DNA of 35,569 bases from Bryobacterales bacterium (lineage in GTDB: Bacteria > Acidobacteriota > Terriglobia > Bryobacterales > Bryobacteraceae), in contig PLZX01000375.1 of NCBI GenBank assembly GCA_003152325.1, forward strand, positions 1 to 35,569. Reading direction: 5' to 3'. A model generated the notes under the pieces. That model ran no database searches, was not told the origin of the DNA, and saw nothing but the letters and a program-made list of their open reading frames with translations. This document shows, piece by piece, positions 429 to 32,866 of the stretch. Position 1 is the first letter of the stretch. Each line of letters begins with the position of its first letter. The position numbers and the translations under genes were made by a program.

Positions 429-594
429 AAAAATGCTGCAGAGTAATACAGGCGCAATGCGGAACCTTTGCCGGCGTGGCCCTGGCGACCCTTGTTATCT
501 TATCCCACCGGCTGTATACTCTTATTTTAGGACGACTGTATCGTATTGTGGTTCAGCGCTAGGGCTCGAGCTCTGGCGGATCGGAGAAGGTTCG

Positions 595-1488
595 ATGTTG
601 GATAAGAGTAACCTCTCACGGCGGTCATACCTATCCGGCACGTTGCTTGCCGGGCTAGTCGCAGCGGCAGCCAGACCGCTCTCGGCGCTCGGAGCGTCCG
701 GCGCCTCTCCCGTTCCTTCCGACAGCAAGATACCGATCGGGCTTGAACTCTTTTCCGTGCGCAACGATCTGGCAAAAGATCTGAATGGTACTATCCGCCG
801 CGTGGTAGCGATGGGTTTCCCGATCCTCGAGTTCTTCGGTCCTTATTACCAGTGGACACCTGCGCAAGCCAAGGACGTTCGGAAGCTCATGGATGACTTG
901 AACGTCCGGTGCCTCTCCACTCACAACGATGTTGCGGCCTTTACGCCCGCAAGCCTACCGAAAACCATCGAATTGAACAGGATTCTGGGCGCTCATTACA
1001 TAGTGATGGTCCGCCGCGAGCCGATCGATAGTATGGATGCCTGGAAACGCGACGTCGCCGATGTGCTGACCGCCGCCAACAACACGCTGAACCAGCACGA
1101 GATGCATGCGGCCTATCATAATCACGAACAGGAATGGCTGCCCATCCAGGGCAAGCTGCCGCTGCAGGTCATCGCGAGCAACACGCCCGCCGACGTGATG
1201 ATGCAGCTGGACGCCGGCACGTGTTTGAAAACCGGCAACGATCCGATTGCCTGGATTGAAAGAAACCCTGGCCGCACCAAATCGGTTCACCTGAAAGAGT
1301 GGACTCCGACGCGAGGCTATCGGGCAGTTCTGGGAGACGATGGCGTCACACCGTGGAGCAATCTTCTCGCCGCGGCGGAAAGCGTCGGTGGAGTGGAGTA
1401 CTACATCCTGGAACAGGAAGAATGCGATTTCGAGCCGATGGACGCTGTGAAGCGAGGCTTGGCGGTCTTTAAGAAGCTGCAAAGCTGA
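595..1488 (+). CDS. Sugar phosphate isomerase/epimerase-like TIM-barrel protein with Tat signal
   Basis: LSRRSYLSGTLLAGLVAAAARPLSA signal; TIM-barrel motifs VRCLSTHND, AAYHNHEQEW, QLDAGTCLKTG, SVHLKEW. Confidence 0.8.
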   Translation: MLDKSNLSRRSYLSGTLLAGLVAAAARPLSALGASGASPVPSDSKIPIGLELFSVRNDLAKDLNGTIRRVVAMGFPILEFFGPYYQWTPAQAKDVRKLMDDLNVRCLSTHNDVAAFTPASLPKTIELNRILGAHYIVMVRREPIDSMDAWKRDVADVLTAANNTLNQHEMHAAYHNHEQEWLPIQGKLPLQVIASNTPADVMMQLDAGTCLKTGNDPIAWIERNPGRTKSVHLKEWTPTRGYRAVLGDDGVTPWSNLLAAAESVGGVEYYILEQEECDFEPMDAVKRGLAVFKKLQS

Positions 1489-1503: not shown

Positions 1504-2466
1504 GTGGATAGTTCACGCAGGTTGTTCTTGCGATCCGGCACGGCACTCGCCGCTGCGATCTCCGCATCGTCATCGTCGATGGCTGCGCCACAGCAGGATC
1601 CCAGCTTCTTCAAGCCGCCCGAAATCCTGCCGCCCATCCCACCAGCCTCCGCCCTGCAAGTTCCGAAGATCAAGTTCGGAAACGTGGAGGTGAGCCGGGT
1701 TGTGGTCGGCTGCAATCCCTTCTACGGCTGGTCGCACTTCAACAGCACCCTGGACACGGTGATGAAGGAATGGTACACGCAGGACCGCGTCTGCGATGTG
1801 CTGCACCAGTGTAATCGTTTCGGCATTACCGCGTTCAATTACCTGCACATCGGCCGCGCGCTGGCGGACTTCGAACGATTCCGCGCCGAAGGCGGACACA
1901 TGCACTTGATTGTCCAGGGAGTGGGTGATCCACAACCAGTGATCCAGGCGCTCAAGCCGCTTGCCATTTATCATCACGGCGAAATGACGGACCGCGCTTT
2001 CCTAGCCGGCAAACTGGATACCGTCCGCGAATACTGCAAGAAGCTGCGGCAAGCCGGCGTGCTGGTGGGCGTGGGATCGCACAAGCCGGAAGTCATCGCG
2101 CAGGTACAGGAAGAAGGCTGGGATGTCGACTTTTTCGCCGGCTGCGTATACAATCGCTCGCGCACGCCGGACGAACTTCGCAAGCTGCTGAACGGGCACG
2201 TGCCACTCGCGCCGCCCGATGTGTATCTGGATACCGACCCGCCGCGCATGTACGCGGTGCTACGTCAAACTAGCAAGCCTTGTTTCGCGTTCAAGATCCT
2301 CGCCGCCGGACGCATCGACACGGCGGAGGGCCTGGACCAGGCATTCAAAACGGCATTTGCAAGCATCAAGCCAACCGACGGCGTTTTCGTCGGCATGTTT
2401 CCGCGAATCAAAGAACAGGTGAGAGACAACGCTGAGCGTGTCCATCGCGTCCTGGTGAGCGATTAA
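1504..2466 (+). CDS. Tat-exported hypothetical TIM-barrel/aldo-keto-reductase-like protein
   Basis: GTG start after AAAGGAGG; SSRRLFLRSGTALAAAISA signal; FGNVEVSRVVVGCNPFYGW N-terminal motif. Confidence 0.65.
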   Translation: MDSSRRLFLRSGTALAAAISASSSSMAAPQQDPSFFKPPEILPPIPPASALQVPKIKFGNVEVSRVVVGCNPFYGWSHFNSTLDTVMKEWYTQDRVCDVLHQCNRFGITAFNYLHIGRALADFERFRAEGGHMHLIVQGVGDPQPVIQALKPLAIYHHGEMTDRAFLAGKLDTVREYCKKLRQAGVLVGVGSHKPEVIAQVQEEGWDVDFFAGCVYNRSRTPDELRKLLNGHVPLAPPDVYLDTDPPRMYAVLRQTSKPCFAFKILAAGRIDTAEGLDQAFKTAFASIKPTDGVFVGMFPRIKEQVRDNAERVHRVLVSD

Positions 2467-17480: not shown

Positions 17481-18838
17481 ATGGATCGAAGGCGATTCAT
17501 CGCGGCGGCAGGCGCGGCGCTCACCAGTTCGTTGTTGACCACGAACGTCCAAGGCGCACCGGATCGCGTGCGAATGGGATTCATTGGGGTTGGTGCCATG
17601 GGGACGGGCAACCTGTCAGCCGCGATCGCGGCGGGGGCGGAGCCGACCGCGGTCTGCGATGTTTACCAGCCGAACCTGGACAAATGCGTTGCCCTGGCAG
17701 CCAAGGCAGGCAGGTGAAGGCCGTGAAGGATTTCCGCCAGATTATCGCGGGCCCGTCGATTGACGCGGTGTGCATCTCCACACCCGACCACTGGCACGCG
17801 TACATGATGGTGGAGGCCTGCAAAGCCAAGAAGGATGTGTACGTGGAGAAGCCGGTCTCCGCGACCGTCGACGAAGCGAATAAAATGCTGGAGGCCGCGC
17901 GGAAATACTCGCGCGTGGTGCAGGTGGGGACGGCCAGACGTTCCTGCGCACACGTGAAGCGGGCGATGGAGTTGGTGCAGAGCGGCGCGTTGGGTCAGGT
18001 CAGTTTCACGCGCGCGTGGGTATTTGGCCTGGAGCCGCCCGAGTGCATCGGCAATCCGCCGGACGGACCTCCGCCGGAAGGGCTCGACTGGGATATGTGG
18101 CTGGGACCGGCGCCCCTGAGGAAATACAATCCGAACCGCTTTGGCGTTTTGCCGGACCGCATGTGGGCCTCTTTCCGCTACTTCTGGGACTATGCCGGCG
18201 GGCAGATGACGGACAACGTAATCCACATGCACGACCTAGTGCACATGCTGATGGGTGAGCCCGTGGCGAAATCCGTAACCGGCTTCGGCACCAAGTATTA
18301 CCTGAAAGACAATCGCGAGACACCGGACACCGGCATGGTCACCATTGAGTATCCTAATTTCATTTCGTCGCTCGAGTACCGTTATGGCAACGCGCAGACG
18401 CTGGTGAAGGATGCGTTCATGCCGATGATGGCGATGAGCATCCATGGCGACAAGGGCACGCTGCAGTTAGACCAGGGCGGATTTCAATTCATTCCGGAGA
18501 ACCAACCGGTCAGTTTCTTGTTCAAGGATTCCTTTGAGCGGATCATTCGCGGAGAGAAACCACCGGACGTGGAAGTGACGCGGGTCAAGGCGGATAAACC
18601 CTCGCCCGATTACGAGGCACACTGGCGCGATTTCCTGGAGTGCGTGAAGACGCGGCAGAAGCCGGTGGGTGATCTGGAGTATGTCACGCGGTCGTCCATT
18701 GCCTGCCTGCTTGGGAACGTCGCGACCCGCGCCCAGACCAGCGTAGACTACCAGGCAGCCACCGGGAAGGCGGTGCAAAAGGAGGCGCAGCAGTACATGA
18801 GTCGCCCTTACCGTGCACCGTGGAAGCTGGAAGTATAA
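17481..18838 (+). pseudogene. Gfo/Idh/MocA-family oxidoreductase with Tat signal, split by a frameshift near 17705-17717
   Basis: Frame 1 (17481-17717): MDRRRFIAAAGAALTSSLLTTNVQGAPDRVRMGFIGVGAMGTGNLSAAIAAGAEPTAVCDVYQPNLDKCVALAAKAGR*; the second frame continues VKAVKDFRQIIAGPSIDAVCISTPDHWHAYMMVEACKAKKDVYVEKPVS... to 18838. Confidence 0.85.
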
Positions 18839-18916: not shown

Positions 18917-19951
18917 TTATTTCAATCGCGGCCAGAGGCGTTCGGCGTTGCCACGATCCAGAGCGTATTGCACATCGGGCGACAATTTGAGATCTGGCAT
19001 CGGACCCATTGTAGCCGCGTAGTTCACCACCGGGAAATCGGTTCCAAACAGGTATTGTGTCGGCGGTGCGAAGGCCCGCAAAGCCGCCATAGGCGCCGCC
19101 GAAGTTGCAGTCGCACACTCATAATAGAGCCGCTGCAATTCGTAAAACACGCCTTTCGGAGTCTTGTCGGTAATACCCGCATTGGCCTGCAGGCCCGTGG
19201 CGCCGCGTCCCCGGCCTATGGAGTTTCGGATACGGGCCGAGAGCGCCGGCAGGGCAGCTCCCGAGTGGTTGACAATCCAGTGGATGTCCTGGCAGCGCGA
19301 CAACGTACCGCTTACCAGCAGGCTGGTAATGGCGCGGGTGGTATCAAATTCATATTCCAGCGTCGCATCGCCGATGCCAGGGACCAGATTCATGCAGCAT
19401 GTCGGGACAGCAGGGTGGAAGAAGACCGCCGACTTGCGCCGGCTCAATTCGTCGAAGACGGGCGCAAACAGCGGATCGCCGGGCCATTTCGCGCCCGCAT
19501 TGGTCATGAGTACGACGCCGTCGCAAAGGAGGCTGTCGAAGGCGTACGCAATTTCCTTGAGGCTCGCGGCGACATCCAGCAGCGGCAGAGCCGCAAAGAA
19601 TCCAAAGCGCCGCGGGTGATCGGCCACCACTCTCGCGCCGAACTCATTTGCCCGCCGCACCAGCGCCGCGGCCTTTTCCGATCCGTCATAAATATATTCC
19701 GGAGGCACGACAAACGACAGGATCGCCGTCTCACATCCGTACTGGCCCATGGCGTCCAGTGACTGCTGGGGCGTCCAGTCCGAATTCGGCAGGTTCGGCA
19801 TGAAGGACGGCAGCATGTGATGGTGGACGTCAACGCGCCCACGTTCGGCTGCCGCCATCGCCGCCGTGCCAGAGATTGCTCCCGCCGCGATCATCTTGAA
19901 CAGACTGCGCCGGCAAATTGCGTTCTTATGGAATTGATGCATGTCTTTCAC
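18917..19951 (-). CDS. Amidohydrolase-2 family protein with Tat signal
   Basis: CRRSLFKMIAAGAISGTAAMA; RGRVDVHHHMLPSF; FFHPAVPTCC; IHWIVNHSGAALP; YLFGTDFPV. Confidence 0.9.
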   Translation of the reverse strand: MKDMHQFHKNAICRRSLFKMIAAGAISGTAAMAAAERGRVDVHHHMLPSFMPNLPNSDWTPQQSLDAMGQYGCETAILSFVVPPEYIYDGSEKAAALVRRANEFGARVVADHPRRFGFFAALPLLDVAASLKEIAYAFDSLLCDGVVLMTNAGAKWPGDPLFAPVFDELSRRKSAVFFHPAVPTCCMNLVPGIGDATLEYEFDTTRAITSLLVSGTLSRCQDIHWIVNHSGAALPALSARIRNSIGRGRGATGLQANAGITDKTPKGVFYELQRLYYECATATSAAPMAALRAFAPPTQYLFGTDFPVVNYAATMGPMPDLKLSPDVQYALDRGNAERLWPRLK

Positions 19952-21072
19952 CTCAGGATGCTTTCGGCCTGCTCTTGTTCGCGCGGAGACTCGGTATTGT
20001 GTTGGCCCTTCCTCGGAACACCTTTTGGATGACAGTCAAGGCATTTCACGAAGTGGATGTTGTGCTTGCTGCCGGTGGCAAGGAAAGTGGTATCCATCAT
20101 CTCGACATCCAAGCCACAGTTGGACATCTTCGGATGGCAGTCCGCGCACGATGCACGGGTCTTCTGGCCGTGTTTCGAGTGGCACGCCAGACAACTGATG
20201 CCCTCATGCACGCCGATCGCGGTGCGGTCGTCGCCAGTGCCGACGCGCATGCTGGAATCGGGCGCATGGCATTGGTAGCAGAGCGCCTGGCGCCGGTCCG
20301 GGCTCATCTTCACCGTTCGGTCCTGGTCGAGCATGGTGGGCAAGGGCAGGAATTCGACGGCGACATATTGTTGGGTGCGGCGATCGAAAAGTGCCAGCGA
20401 CGGGCGATTGGTCTCCTGCGAACGCCCCGGCACTCGCGCCTGCAAGTCCGCTTTGGTCATGGGCGAACCGAGTCGATGCATCTGGTGGCAAGTGAGGCAC
20501 GGCATCACGGGCCGATCGGCCAATTCGGCCGGCAGCACCTTCCACGGTCCCTTCCGGTCCAGGGGCGTGACTAAGTCGCCGATGCCGCCTTCGAAATGCA
20601 TACCGTGGCACCGCAGGCAGTCGTCCATCAATTGCGTGCCGCTGTTGTGCTTCCGGTCGAGAAATATCCGCGCATAAGTCGAACTGTGAGGGCCGGACTG
20701 CCACTGGGCAAACTCCTGCCGATGGCAGGCGGCACATCGCGCCATCATGTTTTGGACGTCCACGTTCCGCAGGCGGGTGTTCTCCGGCAGGTCCCCCTTC
20801 ACATGCTGGTAGAGTCGATTCACGTTGTTCCAATGGAACGACGGGTCCATGGTCATCGCTCCACCGTGGCATTCCTGGCATTTCACTTCGCGGTGACTCG
20901 AAAGGTGCCAGGTGTCGTAGAAGGGGGTCATCTCATGACAGCGAGTGCAGGTGACGCCGCCGCTCGATTCGTAATAGAGGCTTGCTCCCGGTACCAGCAG
21001 GAGCAGCGCGATGGCCACCAGGGCGCCCGTCGCCAGGATCCGGATTATCACCTCAGACGTGTGCCTTTCCAT
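19948..21072 (-). CDS. Membrane-anchored multiheme cytochrome c, nine CxxCH motifs
   Basis: N-terminal TM segment; CTRCH, CQECH, CAACH, CLRCH, CLTCH, CYQCH, CLACH, CADCH, CLDCH. Confidence 0.93.
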   Translation of the reverse strand: MERHTSEVIIRILATGALVAIALLLLVPGASLYYESSGGVTCTRCHEMTPFYDTWHLSSHREVKCQECHGGAMTMDPSFHWNNVNRLYQHVKGDLPENTRLRNVDVQNMMARCAACHRQEFAQWQSGPHSSTYARIFLDRKHNSGTQLMDDCLRCHGMHFEGGIGDLVTPLDRKGPWKVLPAELADRPVMPCLTCHQMHRLGSPMTKADLQARVPGRSQETNRPSLALFDRRTQQYVAVEFLPLPTMLDQDRTVKMSPDRRQALCYQCHAPDSSMRVGTGDDRTAIGVHEGISCLACHSKHGQKTRASCADCHPKMSNCGLDVEMMDTTFLATGSKHNIHFVKCLDCHPKGVPRKGQHNTESPREQEQAESILR

Positions 21073-22700
21073 TTCTTGATCAAGTTGTCGGATGAGTAAT
21101 ACGCCATCGCCAGAATAGTCAGCGCCGGATTGAAACCGCCGTTCGTCACGTGTACGCTCCCATCCATCACAAACACGTTGTCTACGTCATGCAACTGGCA
21201 AAACCGGTTCACCACCGAAGTCTTCGGATCGTCGCCCATCCGGCAGGTGCCCGCCTGATGCTGGCCTCCCACCGCCATCGGAGGATGCAGCGTGGTCCAG
21301 GTGAGATTCGCGCCGGCCTCTTTCATCCACGCCTCGGCTTTCGTCGCAATATATCGCTGGATCTCCATGGTGTGCGGATGTTTCCGGCCTGAAATCCGTG
21401 CCACCGGAACGCCCCAGTAGTCTTTCACTTTTGGATCCGCCTGGACCCTGATATTGAAAACCGGCATCTCTTGCACCGGACCAGTCACCACCACCGTGCG
21501 CTTGTATGCTTTGCGAACGAATTCCTTGTGCGCCGCTCCCCAGCGCGGCACCGATGGTGGAATCCGGTCAAGAAACTGGTACGGAAGCCGGATGAACTCG
21601 TTGGCCAGCATGGCGCCGCCTGCCAGGCCGGGATTGCCATGGTTGTAATCGGAGACGGCAAGCTGTGCGCCGGGGCCCAGATCGTCGTAAGTGTCATGGT
21701 CGAACAGACCCATGGCCGCCGGGTACGCATGACTTTGCAGGTTCCGGCCGACCCAGTCGTAGCGATTGCCCAAACCATTCGGAAACAGCCGGTGCTTCGT
21801 GTTCAGGAGCAGGCGCGCCGATTCCACAGCGGAGCCGGACACCACCACCACGTCCGCCGTTTGCCGGCGCAACTCATCGCGCCCATCGAAATATGCGACA
21901 CCGGTTGCCCGGCCGCGATCGTCCAGGAGAATCTCTTTGACCATGCAGCCGGTGCGCAGCTCGCAATTGCCTGTCGCCAGCGCAACGGGGATCACCGTGT
22001 TGTGCGTGCCGGTGCGCGCGTTTACTTCACAGGCGAAACCAGCGCACCATCGACAACGCATACAGGCGGACCGGCCGTTGTATTGCACGGTATTCCGCAG
22101 CATCGGAATATCGAACGGATGAAGACCCAGGCGCCGGGCCGCCGGCTCCAGGATTCGATACTCCAGATTCGGCGACAGAGGCGGCATGGGAAGCGGCCTC
22201 CGGCGGGGTGCCTTGAATATGTTGCCGGAGTCATCGCCGGAAACCCCCATCTCCCACTCGGCCTTCTCGTAATAGGGCTCCAGGTCGTCGTAAGTGATCG
22301 GCCAATCCTCTAGTGTGGATCCAGCCACCGCGCCGTACGTCGATCGCATGCGGAAGTCTTTTTCCATGTAGCGCCAGGCTTGAGCGCCATAACTGAAGGT
22401 CCCGCCGCCCACGCACGCCGCCACGTTGCTGTAACCGAATTCCCTTGCCAGGACCACCTGTTCACGACCGTCATCATCGACGTGCACTCGCGGGTTCCGT
22501 GCTTCATCTGGACCGAAAGCGTTGCCCAGTACGCAGGTTCGCTGATTGAGCAAGTCATCCTTGCGGCAATCTGCAGCCGAGTACCACTGCCCGCGCTCCA
22601 GCAGAACCGTGCTCAGCCCGGCCGAAGCCAACTCCTTCGCTGCGACACCGCCTCCGGCGCCAGCTCCCACAATCACTGCGTTGACATGCTTCAGCGCCAT
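21048..22700 (-). CDS. GMC-family FAD oxidoreductase
   Basis: VNAVIVGAGAGGGVAAKELASAGLSTVLLERG; GQHQAGTCRMGDDPKTSVV; VFVMDGSVHVTNGGFNPALTILAMAYYSSD; start at ATG 22700. Confidence 0.93.
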   Translation of the reverse strand: MALKHVNAVIVGAGAGGGVAAKELASAGLSTVLLERGQWYSAADCRKDDLLNQRTCVLGNAFGPDEARNPRVHVDDDGREQVVLAREFGYSNVAACVGGGTFSYGAQAWRYMEKDFRMRSTYGAVAGSTLEDWPITYDDLEPYYEKAEWEMGVSGDDSGNIFKAPRRRPLPMPPLSPNLEYRILEPAARRLGLHPFDIPMLRNTVQYNGRSACMRCRWCAGFACEVNARTGTHNTVIPVALATGNCELRTGCMVKEILLDDRGRATGVAYFDGRDELRRQTADVVVVSGSAVESARLLLNTKHRLFPNGLGNRYDWVGRNLQSHAYPAAMGLFDHDTYDDLGPGAQLAVSDYNHGNPGLAGGAMLANEFIRLPYQFLDRIPPSVPRWGAAHKEFVRKAYKRTVVVTGPVQEMPVFNIRVQADPKVKDYWGVPVARISGRKHPHTMEIQRYIATKAEAWMKEAGANLTWTTLHPPMAVGGQHQAGTCRMGDDPKTSVVNRFCQLHDVDNVFVMDGSVHVTNGGFNPALTILAMAYYSSDNLIKKWKGTRLR

Positions 22701-22701
22701 G

Positions 22702-23238
22702 TCAGGATGCCTTCGACTCGTATTTGATCCGCCCACGCACCGGTGGGAAAGGCAGCCCGAGCATCTTCCAGCTCGCTCCGTCTCGATTTCCGCCATGACG
22801 TGGATCGCCATAGAATCCCTGCATCGTATGGGCCACGATGAGATTGAAAAACGGCGTCGCGCGCTTCTCAAGATCCATCAGTACTTGCGTCTGTTGCACC
22901 CAGGAGAGTTGCACGAAGCGTCCGCCAAATCTCTGGCGGCTCAGGTTGTCCACTGTGGCGAGTCCCTGGCGATATGCCTGCTGGTGGCGCTTCAGATGCA
23001 GCGTCAACTGCCGATCGATGTAGTTCGGAACGCCGGCCTCGGCGGCGCCTGGACCGCGACCCGGAGGGATCAACTGCTCGCAGATCGCCTGGATGGTTAG
23101 TGACTGGTCGTCGGTAAAGAACCGCCATGACGGGCCTTTGACCCGTCCGCAAGATACCAGCGTCGCCGCGCCGCTGGCCGCAAGCCCCATTCCCAGGAAC
23201 TTGCGGCGACCGAATCCATTCCACTTTGGCATCTTCAA
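22702..23238 (-). CDS. Gluconate 2-dehydrogenase subunit 3-like protein with Tat/lipobox signal
   Basis: GRRKFLGMGLAASGAATLVSCG; DDQSLTIQAICEQLIPPGRGPGAAEAGVPNYIDRQL; directly upstream of the GMC gene. Confidence 0.88.
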   Translation of the reverse strand: MKMPKWNGFGRRKFLGMGLAASGAATLVSCGRVKGPSWRFFTDDQSLTIQAICEQLIPPGRGPGAAEAGVPNYIDRQLTLHLKRHQQAYRQGLATVDNLSRQRFGGRFVQLSWVQQTQVLMDLEKRATPFFNLIVAHTMQGFYGDPRHGGNRDGASWKMLGLPFPPVRGRIKYESKAS

Positions 23239-23263: not shown

Positions 23264-23869
23264 TTAACTCCCGGGCTCCGGAGGAAACGGCAGGAACACG
23301 TTGTCTTCGGCCGGGTTATACGGATTGTAGATTGAGCTGACAGGCGGAAACCCGGCCTCGTGGAGCCCTTCGACAATCGGCTGCTTAACCCAACCGTCTT
23401 GATAGGGCGTTCGGAAAATGACGTACCACTTGAATTCCAGGAACTTCCACTTGCCGTCCTCTTTCACGAACACATTGTCATACTTGCCGGCTTGCCACAT
23501 GGCCTCCAAAGCGCCGCTGTCCGTCATGTAAGTATTGGCGCCCAGAGAGTTCCACATTCCGTGCGCCCGCGTGCAATCCCGGCTAACTTCCAGCACCGGC
23601 GTCAGTAACATGTGGACGAACAGTCCGCCCTTCATGTGATATTTCGTTCCCAGATGCTGAAACAACTTGCCGACACCATCCGGCCCTTGCCACAGGCCGC
23701 TGTCGGCCATCTCAGCCTTCAGCCCCGGCGTCTTCATGGCGAATAGCTCGGGCAGTTTCCCAGGTAGCTGGCCGGTAGCCAGGTAATGGTTGTATCTCCC
23801 TTGCAGATTGCAGATATCCCGAAAGGCTTCCAGTCCGGCAAGCCGTGACTCCAGATCTTCATGTGCCAT
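23264..23869 (-). CDS. SnoaL/NTF2-like polyketide-cyclase-fold protein
   Basis: MAHEDLESRLAGLEAFRDICNLQGRYNHYLATGQ...; KYDNVFVKEDGKWKFLEFKWYVIFRTPYQDGW; start set at ATG 23869. Confidence 0.75.
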   Translation of the reverse strand: MAHEDLESRLAGLEAFRDICNLQGRYNHYLATGQLPGKLPELFAMKTPGLKAEMADSGLWQGPDGVGKLFQHLGTKYHMKGGLFVHMLLTPVLEVSRDCTRAHGMWNSLGANTYMTDSGALEAMWQAGKYDNVFVKEDGKWKFLEFKWYVIFRTPYQDGWVKQPIVEGLHEAGFPPVSSIYNPYNPAEDNVFLPFPPEPGS

Positions 23870-23877
23870 CGTGTTCC

Positions 23878-24789
23878 CTACGCAATCATCCCGCCGCCGA
23901 GTTCCTTGTAGATCTCGGGAAGGAAGGCTCCAAAGTTCTTGAACTCCCGGACGTTGTGCCGGGCGAGTCCCTGGATGGCTGCGGTCGGCACCGAAATCCC
24001 AGGGGGCAGGCACAGTTCAGGCTTGCCATTCGACATCCGATATCCCATCCAGAACCGTGTGCGGTGCTCCAGACCGCCCGGGACCTGGCGGAAAATGTGG
24101 CACATTAATGCCGGCGCAGTGATCGATTCATCGGTTTTGAATACCGTGCAGGCCCAGCCTGAACCGCCCGCGAATGTGGAGACATTGGGCTCCTTCCACC
24201 GGGTCATGTCGAAGCCGAAATCTTTCGGCGACATGAAACTGATGTCTATATTCTCCATGCCGCAATCACAATTCTCGGTAACATGATGGGTGACACCCCA
24301 GTTCTTCTCGCGGATGGGGATGTTCGGATTGAGAATGCGCTTGCGGGCCTCCGGGCTGATCATGATGCCCCCATGCTGAGGCGGATACCAGATCCGGTAG
24401 CGAAGGTCTTCAAGCGGGTGCCAGGCAAACCACCAATCGATCATCTCCGCCGTTACGCCGCTGTACTGATAACGGTTCGCGATGAACCCGGCGCCGTTGG
24501 GCAGGTTGCACCATCCGATCTCGATTTCCAGGTCACCCGGGTTGAGCAGGTCGTTCATCTGCTCTGGAAAAATAGCCTTCGCCGGGTCACAGGGCGTATC
24601 CATCATCGCCAGATGAGCGGGATCCGCCGGCACCGGGTCACGGTAGTACTTGGCAAATGGCCGCGCCTGTTCTTCCGGAGTGAGAGGCGGCCGTTCCGCC
24701 TTTTTGGCGGTCGAAGCGTACCAATCCTTGTAGTTCTTCTGTGCCTTCCACTCAGGGATTACTTCCATTCCATTCGCAGTCGTAGTCAT
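23878..24789 (-). CDS. PhlG / phloretin-hydrolase-like C-C hydrolase (DAPG hydrolase family), copy 1
   Basis: MIDWWFAWHPLEDLRYRIWYPPQHGG; WGVTHHVTENCD; GLARHNVREFKNFGAFLPEIY (HxxxE as in the PhlG zinc site). Confidence 0.8.
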   Translation of the reverse strand: MTTTANGMEVIPEWKAQKNYKDWYASTAKKAERPPLTPEEQARPFAKYYRDPVPADPAHLAMMDTPCDPAKAIFPEQMNDLLNPGDLEIEIGWCNLPNGAGFIANRYQYSGVTAEMIDWWFAWHPLEDLRYRIWYPPQHGGIMISPEARKRILNPNIPIREKNWGVTHHVTENCDCGMENIDISFMSPKDFGFDMTRWKEPNVSTFAGGSGWACTVFKTDESITAPALMCHIFRQVPGGLEHRTRFWMGYRMSNGKPELCLPPGISVPTAAIQGLARHNVREFKNFGAFLPEIYKELGGGMIA

Positions 24790-24821: not shown

Positions 24822-25604
24822 TCAACTTCTGGGTGTATCCCGAACGATGGGGACCTGGCGCGTGTAAAGGAAGAACGACTTGGACCAGTTCGCAAACTTC
24901 TTCGGATAGGCTTGCAGCGCCTCATTGTATTGACGGAATGCGCCGGCTTGCTCCATGGAGTCGAACCAGAAGCTCACAATCATGTCGAAGACAGGCGGAT
25001 CCACCATCTGGAAGTGTTTTCTGGCGGCGCCGTCGTTGTCATTCACCCGGCAGCGCTTGTTCATCACGCAGCGGCGCATCTGCTCAGACGCGTACGGCGA
25101 TTTCGCCATGGCCGCGTCATGCGCTTCTCGCCAAAGCTGGTAATAATCTTCGCGGTAGACTTCGTCGTCCCGCATGATGTACTGCAGGACCTTGAGAGCG
25201 CCCACGGACTGCACGATTCCAAGTCCGGGATTGAAGACCGTCATAGGATTGGGAACCGGGATTTCTTCTTCCTCAGCCATGACGATGATGTTGGTCGGCT
25301 CGTCCGCAAAGAATTTCCCGTCCTTCGACGCCGCTGAAGGTACCGCCGGCTCCAGCGTGGCCAGCATGTCCTGGAAGTTCTCGAAGACCAGCTCCACCAC
25401 GGCTTCCCGATCGGAAACCTGCTGGTGCGTACGATCGGACAGGGCGCCAAAGGCGCCGTCGATCACATGGTTTTGAATATACGAAGAGATCTTGAAGCGC
25501 TCCTGGCGGGCAATCGTGCCATGGTAATACTCGATGTAACGAAAATATTCCGCCCGTGTCAGCCCGGGACGTCGCCGCGAGGCTGCCATGAGTTTGATCG
25601 GCAT
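24822..25604 (-). CDS. Tandem EthD-domain protein
   Basis: MPIKLMAASRRRPGLTRAEYFRYIEYYHG...; second half LKVLQYIMRDDEVYREDYYQLWREAHDAAM...FDMIVSFWFDSMEQAGAF. Confidence 0.75.
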   Translation of the reverse strand: MPIKLMAASRRRPGLTRAEYFRYIEYYHGTIARQERFKISSYIQNHVIDGAFGALSDRTHQQVSDREAVVELVFENFQDMLATLEPAVPSAASKDGKFFADEPTNIIVMAEEEEIPVPNPMTVFNPGLGIVQSVGALKVLQYIMRDDEVYREDYYQLWREAHDAAMAKSPYASEQMRRCVMNKRCRVNDNDGAARKHFQMVDPPVFDMIVSFWFDSMEQAGAFRQYNEALQAYPKKFANWSKSFFLYTRQVPIVRDTPRS

Positions 25605-25635: not shown

Positions 25636-26289
25636 TTAGTGGATCGGCATCTCTGCCACGTTGTACGGAATAATGAGCCAGGCTCCGGTGCTCGCCACCA
25701 CCTGCTCCACACTCACGCCCGGAGCCGTCTCGCGCAGCACCAGCCCTTCTTCGACCGGCTCGATTACGGCCATCTCCGTCACGATAAGGTCCACCCGCCG
25801 CACCGACGTCAGCGGCAATGTGCAGCACTTCAGGATTTTCGGCTTACCCTTTACGGTGTGAGTCATGGCGACGATCACCCGCCTGGCTCCGGTCACCAGG
25901 TCCATGGCTCCGCCCATCCCAGCCACCATCCTGCCGGGTACCATCCAGTTCGCCAGGTGGCCCTGTTCATCAACTTCCATGCCGCCCAGCACCGTGAGAT
26001 CGAGGTGGCCTCCGCGAATTAATCCGAAAGAGAGACAGCTATCGATGCTGGCGGCCCCTGGAATCGCGCCGGTGTAGCCGCCGCCTGCGTCGGTCAGTGA
26101 TGGATCCGCCATACCCGCTCCCGGCAGCGGCGCCATACCAATAATGCCGTTTTCCGACTGGAAATAAATCTGCACGCCAGGTCGAAGGTAGTGTGGAACC
26201 GTGGTCGGGAGGCCGATGCCGAGATTGACCAGATCGCCGTCTTTCAATTCCAGGGCCACCCGTTTCGCAATGAGGACCTTATCGTCCAT
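25636..26289 (-). CDS. CoA-transferase subunit B (3-oxoacid CoA-transferase type)
   Basis: [32 protein letters not shown] (catalytic Glu context); [36 protein letters not shown]. Confidence 0.93.
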
Positions 26290-26944
26290 TGGTTCCACAC
26301 CTCTCAATGATGTAGTCGACGCAGACAAAAGGAGTCGCCACCATGTCTGGCGGAATGACCCCTATGGGAACGATGTGCTCCGGTTCCGCGATTACCGTCC
26401 GTCCGGCCAGGGCCATCACAGGATTGAAATTGCGTGCCGTGAGAGAATACTCCAGGTTGCCGTGATAGTCCGAGCGGTGAGCCGCGATAATCGCGAAGTC
26501 GGCCGTCATCGGTCGCTCCAGCAGAAAATATCTACCGTCGATCTCCACCGTCGGTTTGTTCTCGGCTGCCAGGGTTCCGATGCCCGTGGGCGTGAGCACG
26601 CCTCCAAGACCAAATCCGCCGGCTCGAATCCGCTCGGCGAGTGTTCCTTGCGGAGAAAGTTCAACTTCGATTTCGCCGGCCAGCATCTGCTGCTGTGCCT
26701 CCGGATTCAATCCGATATGCGTCGAGACCAGCCTGCGTATCAGCCGTGCCCGAATCAACCTGCCTATTCCGTAATCCGGCAACCCCGCGTCGTTGGCGAT
26801 CACCGTCAGATCGCGACGTCCTTGCAGGACAATCTCAGCGATGACGCGATGTGGCGATCCCACGCCCATGAACCCGCCGATCATCAACGAGGATCCGTCC
26901 GGGATCATCTCGACTGCCCTGGCACAGCTTAGGGACTTATTCAT
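26279..26944 (-). CDS. CoA-transferase subunit A
   Basis: IPDGSSLMIGGFMGVGSPHRVIAEIV; LSPQGTLAERIRAGGFGLGGVLTPTGIGT; short overlap with subunit B. Confidence 0.93.
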   Translation of the reverse strand: MNKSLSCARAVEMIPDGSSLMIGGFMGVGSPHRVIAEIVLQGRRDLTVIANDAGLPDYGIGRLIRARLIRRLVSTHIGLNPEAQQQMLAGEIEVELSPQGTLAERIRAGGFGLGGVLTPTGIGTLAAENKPTVEIDGRYFLLERPMTADFAIIAAHRSDYHGNLEYSLTARNFNPVMALAGRTVIAEPEHIVPIGVIPPDMVATPFVCVDYIIERCGTNGR

Positions 26945-26957
26945 TGGCATCCGTTTC

Positions 26958-27893
26958 TTAGAAGGCAGTCGCGGCAACGCCCTTTAGACCCAGGATTTGA
27001 CGCATCTCGTCCGGCGTTGCGATCTCCCTGTCGAATTCGCGCGCCAGCCGCACCACTTTCTCGACCAGTTCCGCATTGGTGGCCAGGCGACCTCGTCCGA
27101 CAAAGATGTTGTCCTCCAATCCGACGCGGACATGCCCTCCCATCATGATCGCCATGGCAGCCATGTTGAATTCGGCCGGATACCCGACGCCGATCACCGA
27201 CCAGCGGTAGTTCTCTGTGCCGAACAGCCGGTCGGCGGTCTGCTTCATCACCATCAGGTCTTCCGGCGTGGCGGCCAGCCCGCCCAGAACGCCTAGGACG
27301 AATTGAATCCAGAACGGAGGCTTCGCAATGCCGTTCTTCATCAGGAACCGCAGGTTATATAGGTGGCCCACATCGTATGCCTCGAACTCCGGACGGACCC
27401 CGTGTTGCGCAAACGCAGCGCTATAGGTTTCCATGTCGCCGAAGGTGTTGCGGAAGATGAAGTCCTTGGTGCCGGCGGCGTATGCCTGCTCCCAATCATA
27501 TTTGTAGTCTTCCGGCTTATACCGGCGGGCAACCGGATGAATCGAGAAATTGATGCTCCCCAAGTTGAACGACGCCAGCTCCGGCTGGTAACGCGGAATC
27601 ACGCGCAACCGGTCCTGTGGAGACATTCCCATGCCGCCGCCAGTGGTGATGCCAATCACCGCATCGCAGCCTGCGTTGATGCCTCGCAAGATGGGTTCGA
27701 AAAGATCCGGGTCCGACAGCGGCCTGCCGTTTTGCGGATCTCGGGCGTGCACGTGAACCGCGGCGGCTCCGGCCTTGCGGCAGGCAATCGCATCCGCAAT
27801 CAGGTGCTCCGGCGTGAACGGCAAATGGGGCGACTGCGTCGGGATGGTAATGGCGCCCGTCAGCGCCGAAGTAATAATCAACTTCTCAGCCAT
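26958..27893 (-). CDS. BKACE family beta-keto acid cleavage enzyme (3-keto-5-aminohexanoate cleavage / triacetate lyase-like)
   Basis: MAEKLIITSALTGAITIPTQSPHLPFTPEHLIADAIACRKAGAAAVHVHARDP; GITTGGGMGMSPQDRLRVI; GGHVRVGLEDNIFVGRGRLATNAELVEKVVRLA. Confidence 0.92.
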   Translation of the reverse strand: MAEKLIITSALTGAITIPTQSPHLPFTPEHLIADAIACRKAGAAAVHVHARDPQNGRPLSDPDLFEPILRGINAGCDAVIGITTGGGMGMSPQDRLRVIPRYQPELASFNLGSINFSIHPVARRYKPEDYKYDWEQAYAAGTKDFIFRNTFGDMETYSAAFAQHGVRPEFEAYDVGHLYNLRFLMKNGIAKPPFWIQFVLGVLGGLAATPEDLMVMKQTADRLFGTENYRWSVIGVGYPAEFNMAAMAIMMGGHVRVGLEDNIFVGRGRLATNAELVEKVVRLAREFDREIATPDEMRQILGLKGVAATAF

Positions 27894-30080: not shown

Positions 30081-30917
30081 ATGACCGCTATTCAGACAGA
30101 CTTGACTGCCGCCGAAAAGGCGAAACCCTACTCCAAGTATTTCTATCGTCCGCCCGCCCAACCCGTACCGGAAAGGTTGGCGGTGATGGATAAGCCCATG
30201 GATCCATCCAAGGCGTTGCCCGTCGAGCGCATCAACGATCTGCTCAATCCGGGGTATTTCGAGGCGGAGTCGGGATGGTGTGTCCTGCCCAATGGCGCCG
30301 GCTACGTGGCCAATCACACCGTCATGCCCGGCGTCACGGTAGACATGATCGACTGGTGGATGGCGTGGCACGGCCTGGAAGATCTCCGTTACAGGATCTG
30401 GTTCCCGGCGGGGCACTACGGCGTTTCCATGAGCGAGAAAGACCGAGCTAAAATCCTCAATCCAAACCGCCCGATGGCGCGGAAGCTATCGGGTGTCACT
30501 CACTTTGTCATCGAGAACGTCGGCGGCCCTAGCGCCGAGAAGATCGCAATCAGTTTCATGTCCCCGGAAGACGTCGGCTTCGACATGGCCAGGTTCCACG
30601 CCCCCAATGTCGGGACCATCGTGGCGGCGAACGGCGTCTCCCTGATGTTGAACCCGCCACCCGGCGTTCCGAATTTCAAGGCGCCGGCCTTCATGATTCA
30701 TTTCATCCGCGAAGTCCCTCGCGGCATCGAATATCGGACGCGCTTCTGGCTCGGCTATCATATCCTGAACCGCAAACCGTGGTTCCTGTTGCCCGGAGGC
30801 GTGAGGATTCCGGAGTTTGTTTCTCGCGGCCTGGCCATTCACAACGTATGCGAATACACCAACCTCGGGTCCTTCCTCCCGCAGTTGTACGAAGAACAGA
30901 ACGGGGTCCTTGCCTGA
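30081..30917 (+). CDS. PhlG / phloretin-hydrolase-like C-C hydrolase (DAPG hydrolase family), copy 2
   Basis: MIDWWMAWHGLEDLRYRIWFPAGHYGV; GVTHFVIENVGG; GLAIHNVCEYTNLGSFLPQLYEE; parallel to 23878..24789. Confidence 0.8.
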   Translation: MTAIQTDLTAAEKAKPYSKYFYRPPAQPVPERLAVMDKPMDPSKALPVERINDLLNPGYFEAESGWCVLPNGAGYVANHTVMPGVTVDMIDWWMAWHGLEDLRYRIWFPAGHYGVSMSEKDRAKILNPNRPMARKLSGVTHFVIENVGGPSAEKIAISFMSPEDVGFDMARFHAPNVGTIVAANGVSLMLNPPPGVPNFKAPAFMIHFIREVPRGIEYRTRFWLGYHILNRKPWFLLPGGVRIPEFVSRGLAIHNVCEYTNLGSFLPQLYEEQNGVLA

Positions 30918-32008
30918 AGACCGGCACCGCCTCGCTTGCGGCCGTGTTTCGTGCCGCGGGTGAGCCGCTCACGCTTGAGCAGTTTCCTATTCCCGCGTTG
31001 GCGGCCGGTGAATTGCTCGTTCGCGTGCGCTGCGCCACCATTTGCGGCAGCGATCTGCATTCCTGTTTCGGACGCCGCCCCTCGCCCACACCAGGCATCC
31101 TGGGCCACGAAATGGTGGGCGAGATCGCCGGCATTGGCCCTGGCGGTGGCCTGGATTATCGCGGCACGCCGCTCCAACTCGCAGATCGCGTCACATGGTC
31201 CATGGTGTGGAGTTGCGGCCAATGCTTCTATTGCCGCCACGGATTGCGGCCGAAGTGCGATCGCTTGATGAAATTCGGTCATGAGAAACTTATCCCGGGT
31301 CGCGCCTTGACGGGCGGCATGGCTGAATACTGTCATTTGCCTCCAGGGACCGCGATCTTCCGTGTCCCGTCGAACGTGCCGGATTCAGTGGCCTGCCCGG
31401 CCAATTGCGCCACCGCAACAGTGGTGGCCGTGTTTCGCCATGCCGGTCCGGTGACAGGCGAAGTAGTAATAATCCATGGCGCGGGAATGCTGGGACTGAC
31501 GGCATGCGCGATGGCAGCCACCGCGGGCGCCGCCCACGTAGTCGTCATCGAGCCAGACCCAGGTCGACGCCAGCGTGCGTTGCGATTCGGCGCCGACGTG
31601 GCGCTCGACAGTGCGCAGCCGCCCGCTACAATCGTCGAGCATGTACTCGAATTGAGCTCCGGACGAGGAGCCGATGCGGCTTTGGAATTCGCCGGCTATC
31701 CGGAATCGGTCGAACTCGGCGTCCAGCTCCTTCGCCCCGGCGGCAGGTTCGTAATCGCCGGCGCCACGTTTCCCACGCCTCCGGTACAACTCTCCGCCGA
31801 ACATATCGTGCGGCGCATGTTGCGGCTCACTGGCGTCTATAACTACTCCCCGGAGGATTTGGAAAACGCCCTTGCCTTTCTGTCCGGCGCTGTGGACCGC
31901 TATCCTTTTCAGGAACTGGTGGAGGCCAACTATCCGCTTCGCGAGGTCAATGCCGCCATCGCGTTTGCCGAGAGAGAGCGCCCAACGCGCGTCGCCCTTG
32001 TCCCTTGA
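30914..32008 (+). CDS. Zinc-dependent alcohol dehydrogenase (MDR family; resembles phosphonate-associated ADH type)
   Basis: CATICGSDLHSCFGRRPSPTPGILGHEMVGEIAGIG; SCGQCFYCRHGLRPKCDRLMKFGHE; VVIIHGAGMLGLTACAMA; start codon uncertain (non-ATG, overlaps preceding gene). Confidence 0.85.
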   Translation: MKTGTASLAAVFRAAGEPLTLEQFPIPALAAGELLVRVRCATICGSDLHSCFGRRPSPTPGILGHEMVGEIAGIGPGGGLDYRGTPLQLADRVTWSMVWSCGQCFYCRHGLRPKCDRLMKFGHEKLIPGRALTGGMAEYCHLPPGTAIFRVPSNVPDSVACPANCATATVVAVFRHAGPVTGEVVIIHGAGMLGLTACAMAATAGAAHVVVIEPDPGRRQRALRFGADVALDSAQPPATIVEHVLELSSGRGADAALEFAGYPESVELGVQLLRPGGRFVIAGATFPTPPVQLSAEHIVRRMLRLTGVYNYSPEDLENALAFLSGAVDRYPFQELVEANYPLREVNAAIAFAERERPTRVALVP

Positions 32009-32044
32009 GCACAAAATCATGAGGCCGCTTTTTGCGGAGCAGGA

Positions 32045-32866
32045 ATGAGTCAGAATATGCAATCGCACGGTGTCCGCGCCGTCATCTTCGACATATCCGG
32101 CACCACTCTTGACTTCGGCAGTCGCGGGCCCGTCGTGGCCTTCGTGGAACTCTTCGGCCGGCACGGGGTAGCCGTCACGGAGGCGGAAGCTCGCGCTCCC
32201 ATGGGCATCCACAAGAAGGATCACATCTGGGCCATGCTCACGGATGCCTCAATCGCAGAGCGCTGGAAGCGAGTCGCTGGCGCGGCCCCGGCACTTGAGG
32301 ACCTCGATCGCCTCTACGCGGAATTTACGTCGCTGCTGGTGGAGGTGCTGAAGCGTCACTGCGACGTGATTCCGGGCGTGCCGGAAGTGGTGCGAGAACT
32401 GCGCGCTCGCGGCATCAAGATCGCCAATACCACCGGCTTCGATTCCGCCATGATGGTTGACCTCATCCGCCTTGCCGCCGAGGGCGGCTATACGCCCGAT
32501 CTGTGGGTGTGCCCGGACCACGTCGGCATAGGGCGTCCCGCACCTTGGATGGCCTTCCACGCCGCCAGGCAACTCGACATATACCCCATGTCAACCTTCG
32601 TCAAGGTTGGAGACACTCTGGCAGACGTTCAGGAAGCACATGCGGCAGGGATGTGGGCTGTCTCGGTGCTGCGGCACGGCAATGAAGTCGGATTGTCCCG
32701 CGAGGCCCTGAGCCAGCTTTCGCCCGCCGAATGGGACCAGCGCATGAGCCACGCACGTGGCCGCCTCGCCGCAAAGGGCCCTCACTACATCATCGACAGC
32801 ACCGCCAATCTGATTCCGGTGGTGGACAGCATCACCGCGCGCCTGGTGCGTGGTGAACGTCCATAA
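32045..32866 (+). CDS. HAD-family phosphonoacetaldehyde-hydrolase (phosphonatase)-like protein
   Basis: AVIFDISGTTLDFGSRGPVVAF; PMGIHKKDHIWAML (Schiff-base Lys context); GRPAPWMAFHAARQLDIYPMSTFVKVGDTLADVQEAHAAGMWAVSVL. Confidence 0.8.
   Translation: MSQNMQSHGVRAVIFDISGTTLDFGSRGPVVAFVELFGRHGVAVTEAEARAPMGIHKKDHIWAMLTDASIAERWKRVAGAAPALEDLDRLYAEFTSLLVEVLKRHCDVIPGVPEVVRELRARGIKIANTTGFDSAMMVDLIRLAAEGGYTPDLWVCPDHVGIGRPAPWMAFHAARQLDIYPMSTFVKVGDTLADVQEAHAAGMWAVSVLRHGNEVGLSREALSQLSPAEWDQRMSHARGRLAAKGPHYIIDSTANLIPVVDSITARLVRGERP

Follow-up and report, generated by a model that had tools for sequence, protein, structure and literature searches.

Organization of the Locus

The window, the whole stretch of DNA analyzed, is a 35,569-base contig of a 5.88 Mb MAG (82% complete), most likely from an acidobacterium of the Bryobacterales, the order whose MAGs hold relatives of its cytochrome. 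Three consecutive genes on its minus strand encode, in this order, a protein of the gluconate 2-dehydrogenase subunit 3 family (G2DH3), an FAD-dependent dehydrogenase catalytic subunit (GMC) and a cytochrome (CYT9), all listed in Table 1. The spacing between G2DH3 and GMC is 1 nt, GMC and CYT9 overlap by 25 nt, and CYT9 overlaps the following amidohydrolase gene by 4 nt. The coordinates, the strand and the 25-nt overlap given in an earlier sequence-only reading of this DNA were all borne out when the sequence was read again, and its description of a TM-anchored cytochrome with nine CxxCH motifs beside GMC and subunit 3 agrees with our motif count and hydrophobicity analysis. The GMC start is most likely the ATG at 22700; a longer frame of 607 aa, prolonged upstream to a TTG at 22871, finds no support in homologues.

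Table 1. Genes of the three-gene unit and its surroundings in the window
Feature	Position	Strand	Basis
AP_endonuc_2 protein, AtOGE-related, Tat-signalled	433..1488	+	8bvk 5.5e-11; RRSY leader
TIM-barrel protein, Tat-signalled, no Pfam match	1504..2466	+	predicted fold
Gfo/Idh/MocA gene, Tat-signalled, frameshifted near 17714	17481..18838	+	leader and catalytic part in different frames
Amidohydro_2 protein, Tat-signalled, last operon gene	18917..19951	-	PF04909 9.1e-23; RRSL leader
CYT9, membrane-anchored nonaheme c-type cytochrome, 374 aa	19948..21072	-	nine CxxCH
GMC, FAD-dependent dehydrogenase catalytic subunit, 550 aa	21048..22700	-	PF05199/PF00732
G2DH3, gluconate 2-dehydrogenase subunit 3 family	22702..23238	-	PF13618, 101 bits, 6.6e-29; twin-arginine leader
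SnoaL-like protein	23264..23869	-	PF13577; start from codon-usage caller
PhlG1, DAPG/phloretin hydrolase-like	23878..24789	-	PF18089 4.9e-73
EthD-domain protein	24822..25604	-	PF07110 4.4e-17
3-oxoacid CoA-transferase subunit B	25636..26289	-	TIGR02428 286 bits, cut-off 243.55 exceeded
3-oxoacid CoA-transferase subunit A	26279..26977	-	TIGR02429 222 bits, cut-off 128.5 exceeded
BKACE, triacetate:acetoacetate-lyase-like, first operon gene	26958..27893	-	PF05853 1.7e-102

The trio lies within a predicted ten-gene minus-strand operon with intergenic distances of -25 to +32 nt, in the order BKACE, CoA-transferase A, CoA-transferase B, EthD, PhlG1, SnoaL, G2DH3, GMC, CYT9 and Tat amidohydrolase. 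Phloroglucinol-type genes, not sugar genes, dominate this operon, and the genes at its start look like components of the breakdown of phloroglucinol and phloretin (PMC10470551). The BKACE protein scores 403.6 bits against the triacetate:acetoacetate-lyase (TAL) model NF053538, close below the cut-off of 430. A second PhlG-like gene is found at 30081-30917 (+); the two PhlG-like genes, the TAL-like BKACE and the CoA-transferase form a probable acylphloroglucinol catabolic cluster. Adjoining this cluster at 31025-32866 (+) are phosphonate genes, an HpnZ-like alcohol dehydrogenase (TIGR03366) and then a phosphonoacetaldehyde hydrolase (TIGR01422), both above cut-off.

Sugar genes are also present in the window. 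The probable start of the AtOGE-like gene lies inside its ORF, and AtOGE itself is an O-glycoside beta-eliminase. The Gfo/Idh/MocA gene, with its leader and catalytic part in different frames, is either a pseudogene or the product of misassembly, and both of these genes sit outside the transcription unit of the trio. The protein without a Pfam match has a predicted TIM-barrel structure (pLDDT 79) for which KDO8P synthases and aldo-keto reductases score alike, and 11-14 of the 80 relatives have a homologue of it next to the trio. The window also encodes a Tat-signalled DUF1080 (3-keto-disaccharide hydrolase) protein.

Conservation of the Trio in Other Genomes

In a set of 61 genomes comprising the window's own genome and its relatives, CYT9 is present in 15, all within the window's own family, and 13 of these 15 carry the full G2DH3-GMC-CYT9 order on one contig; a contig end cuts G2DH3 in G017, and the trio of G013 is divided between two contig ends. 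A GTDB-wide scan with a 14-sequence CYT9 alignment, from which 80 loci were kept, shows that CYT9 is spread over Bryobacterales, other Acidobacteriota and Opitutia. Of the 80 loci, 78 have GMC directly upstream of CYT9 and on its strand, and 74 have G2DH3 as well, with every missing GMC or G2DH3 falling at a contig end. A codon-usage gene caller was used at GC-rich loci, where longest-ORF calls gave shadow ORFs. The trio, which the sequence-only reading had proposed to look for elsewhere, thus occurs as a unit and is a real, conserved module. That reading had also raised the possibility of a cytochrome conserved independently of GMC genes; no such conservation was seen, and one divergent lone paralogue was found. 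Genome G301 (contig C660; L181:3221-4303) bears a second CYT9 copy that stands alone; it has nine CxxCH, and no GMC gene lies alongside.

Full-length CYT9 is found in just 4 of 247 genomes across the phylum, where the other profile matches are weak (35-55 bits) and cover the NrfH-like N-terminal part only. Six of 188 genomes in the class of an Opitutia genome have CYT9, and a GMC sequence is directly upstream in all six loci, the one at L197 being a degraded remnant. Gfo/Idh is directly downstream of CYT9 in three of the six (L194, L195 and L196); in the cytochromes of these three, which contain eight CxxCH, a leader-like N-terminus stands where the NrfH-like first heme and anchor would be. 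A plasmid search with CYT9 gave a sole match, a Selenomonas NapC/NirT gene (2e-4). Neighbors of the trio in relatives include GH3 and other sugar genes and are diverse overall. Phloroglucinol genes are beside the trio in none of the 80 relatives, so that this arrangement is found in the present window only and phloroglucinol genes are ruled out as a general partner.

The closest GMC-G2DH3 sisters (in G044, G019, G216 and G270), with 56-62% identity, are without CYT9. Judging from this comparison, CYT9 is not essential to the enzyme type, because such sister pairs do without it, and it was probably either gained in this clade or lost by the sisters. Among the other acidobacterial G2DH3-GMC pairs sampled, no CYT9-profile gene is nearby except at L132, whose GMC belongs to the same clade; the three-CxxCH proteins of L145 and L146 fail to match the CYT9 profile. 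The earlier statement that such complexes normally pair with a triheme cytochrome is right for GDH, FDH and GADH, but not for GlycDH, which has a monoheme partner, nor for the sampled acidobacterial pairs, since a neighboring multiheme gene is absent from most of them.

Features of the Three Proteins

In the PDB, GMC comes closest to FAD-GDH and FDH of bacteria, with E-values from 1e-46 to 1e-40 (6a2u, 3.5e-46; 8xcm, 1e-41), whereas pyranose oxidases match it solely at C-terminal residues ~480-544 with E about 1e-4. This contrast supports the earlier view that GMC differs from the O2-using CarA-type enzymes; however, "oxidase", the name then given to it, is the wrong word, as GMC groups with electron-transferring dehydrogenases. 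His481 and Asn524 are conserved. The four invariant Cys of a CxxCxxCx4C motif at residues 213-224 line up with the cysteine region of GDH and FDH, and GMC would probably hold an Fe-S cluster. The FAD electrons of GDH go first to a 3Fe-4S cluster (PMC9727119).

In a tree of 56 GMC sequences, none of them a characterised GlycDH and with the position of FDH unsure (long branch), the CYT9-linked GMCs fall in a clade of 21 sequences with SH-aLRT 100. Also in this clade are a Microvirga/Deinococcus/Paenibacillus group and a single acidobacterial sequence that is not linked to CYT9. The Deinococcus gene is a G2DH3-GMC fusion beside GH3, Gfo/Idh and two sugar-phosphate-isomerase genes, a set that the GlycDH/AtOGE operon of A. 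tumefaciens is reported to contain (PMC10628242). Natural G2DH3-GMC fusions of Paenibacillus and Deinococcus (L119, L120 and L123) lack a neighboring cytochrome gene. An Agrobacterium plasmid match (H21) was considered as a GlycDH operon and rejected on inspection.

GMC has no signal peptide and G2DH3 has a Tat leader, as the hitch-hiker pattern predicts. The G2DH3 of the window bears a twin arginine (RR11-12) and, after the Tat leader, a lipobox Cys30. Because the twin arginine is kept in 73 of 73 homologues and the lipobox Cys in 71 of 73, G2DH3 is probably a Tat lipoprotein. In the sister pairs without CYT9, this lipoprotein pattern is missing in L177 and L178 and present in L185.

CYT9 contains exactly nine CxxCH (at residues 42, 65, 113, 152, 192, 265, 294, 309 and 344), while 20,000 composition shuffles of it gave a mean of 0.06 and a maximum of 3; the motif is absent from all other proteins in the window set. 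Its one hydrophobic helix is N-terminal (residues 9-27, mean Kyte-Doolittle 2.67). All nine motifs are kept in relatives, with nine CxxCH in 75 of 77 extended CYT9 sequences, and nine more histidines (H60, H90, H129, H142, H199, H289, H301, H337 and H340) are 90-100% conserved. As candidate distal ligands they fit a putative pairing of one to each heme, under which CYT9 would have nine low-spin bis-His hemes and function as a wire, not a catalyst. Residues 13-156 match the NrfH model TIGR03153 at 5.2e-14 (52.5 bits, below the cut-off of 134.2), and CYT9 matches the NrfH structure 2j7a at 4.7e-05. An AlphaFold model of CYT9 from 14 sequences had a pLDDT of 54.7 and no PDB fold match, and was set aside.

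Proposed Function and Alternatives

We consider it reasonably likely that the trio forms a periplasmic membrane-associated dehydrogenase complex, in which electrons would pass from a sugar, likely at C3 of a glycoside, to FAD, an Fe-S cluster and the CYT9 hemes. GMC would load FAD, and probably the Fe-S cluster, in the cytoplasm and cross the membrane on the Tat signal of G2DH3, its PF13618 partner, which as a lipoprotein would then anchor it. There it would oxidise a sugar hydroxyl, most likely glycoside C3, and the electrons would move through FAD and Fe-S to CYT9, which may be held by its N-terminal NrfH-like helix and may hand them on either to the menaquinone pool or to c-type carriers of the periplasm. 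From either they could go on to terminal oxidases, and two heme-copper oxidases are encoded in the genome. The 3-keto product would be cut by the exported AtOGE-type and related enzymes. Gene content, linkage, export signals, the conservation of heme and ligand residues and the place of GMC in the phylogeny can be read from the sequences; what we infer is complex formation, the substrate, the Fe-S cluster, and the direction and destination of the electrons. Glycoside C3 oxidation is favoured on phylogeny and genomic context; the GMC clade includes the Deinococcus fusion in a GlycDH/AtOGE-type operon. Counted for the complex are the strict linkage, the nine CxxCH with their candidate distal His, the Tat leader and lipobox, the GDH/FDH kinship, the Deinococcus fusion in the GMC clade, the sugar neighbors, the AtOGE-like gene, the ferricyanide activity of GlycDH and the two heme-copper oxidases; counted against it are the phloroglucinol-dominated operon, the position of the window's sugar genes in other transcription units, the CYT9-free sisters, the lone paralogue, the diverse neighbors and the Opitutia versions without the first heme.

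The operon itself could argue for another substrate. Its spacing and its PhlG1, BKACE and CoA-transferase assignments are what one would expect if the same complex, with the same electron path, oxidised an alcohol of acylphloroglucinol breakdown as a partner of these enzymes. This is unlikely in our estimate, as none of those genes is near the trio in the 80 relatives, and both the GMC kinship and the sugar neighbors point to sugars; because the trio is conserved without them, the phloroglucinol genes do not define its substrate. A coherent scenario, at the level of a guess, would join both gene sets: a phloretin- or phloroglucinol-type glycoside might have its sugar oxidised in the periplasm, after which the aglycone would be eliminated and degraded inside the cell.

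The direction of the electrons can be questioned from the N-terminal similarity of CYT9 to NrfH, a quinol oxidase. CYT9 might then act as a quinol dehydrogenase like NrfH, passing electrons outward, either to a reductase in the periplasm or to a GMC working in the reducing direction, and accept no sugar electrons. At the loci seen, however, its linkage is with a GMC dehydrogenase, and a reductase gene, NrfA-like or other, never takes that place; the known homologous complexes oxidise sugars and reduce their cytochrome, which makes an outward flow distinctly improbable. A third alternative would make GMC a glycoside 3-oxidase of the CarA/PsG3Ox type, using O2, and give the cytochrome some other role. 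Membership in the GMC superfamily is all that speaks for it; the PF13618 partner and the obligate cytochrome linkage are dehydrogenase traits, and the marginal C-terminal match to pyranose oxidases against 1e-46 for GDH leaves very little room for it.

Under the preferred reading of a glycoside dehydrogenase complex, one may go further and see in the nonaheme subunit a distinct respiratory wire of Acidobacteriota and Opitutia, through which glycoside oxidation in the periplasm would feed acceptors of low potential or outside the cell (menaquinone, humics, Fe(III)), in an undescribed class of sugar dehydrogenase complex; we hold this extension to be rather doubtful. The proposed complex itself would be a respiratory sugar-oxidising one that recurs in abundant, hard-to-culture soil and peat bacteria. 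It would show how plant glycosides can be oxidised outside the cytoplasm without H2O2, and its nine-heme electron-transfer subunit would be of interest for direct-electron-transfer biosensors.

Comparison with Known Systems

In the open PMC literature, no description of a GMC/multiheme or nonaheme pairing was found. The trio is most readily compared with Burkholderia FADGDH (6a2u, 8grj), Gluconobacter fructose dehydrogenase (7w2j, 8xcm) and gluconate 2-dehydrogenase, in which a GMC, a PF13618 hitch-hiker and a membrane-bound c-type cytochrome are likewise co-encoded. The GDH and FDH heterotrimers share with the GMC of the trio the cysteine motif in the Fe-S position, but the cytochrome of GDH, FDH and GADH is triheme whereas that of the trio is nonaheme and NrfH-like, and the lipobox on the hitch-hiker subunit is a feature of the trio unlike these heterotrimers. 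GlycDH of Rhizobium sp. GIN611 and Agrobacterium (PMC10628242) also has a GMC with a Tat partner and a non-O2 acceptor, as proposed for the trio, and, by its published description, is associated with AP_endonuc_2 and Gfo/Idh genes; in the window, an AtOGE-like gene and a frameshifted Gfo/Idh gene lie in transcription units other than that of the trio, while the Deinococcus relative has such genes in one row with its fusion. Ferricyanide gives GlycDH an activity at least 100-fold above that seen with O2, which agrees with a cytochrome as acceptor; this acceptor is a monoheme CYTc (PMC9915066), in contrast to the nonaheme protein here.

The CarA/PsG3Ox glycoside 3-oxidases (PMC10646112) have the GMC superfamily and the proposed glycoside C3 oxidation in common with the trio, but they use O2, are without a PF13618 or cytochrome partner, and show marginal sequence similarity to its GMC. 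NrfH (2j7a) and the NapC/NirT family resemble CYT9 in the N-terminal anchor and first heme region; they are quinol-oxidising and have four hemes, whereas CYT9 has nine and its C-terminal two thirds are unique. In our judgement the trio belongs with the Tat-exported GMC dehydrogenase complexes, as a variant that uses a nonaheme NrfH-like cytochrome for electron transfer where GDH and FDH have a triheme and GlycDH a monoheme one.
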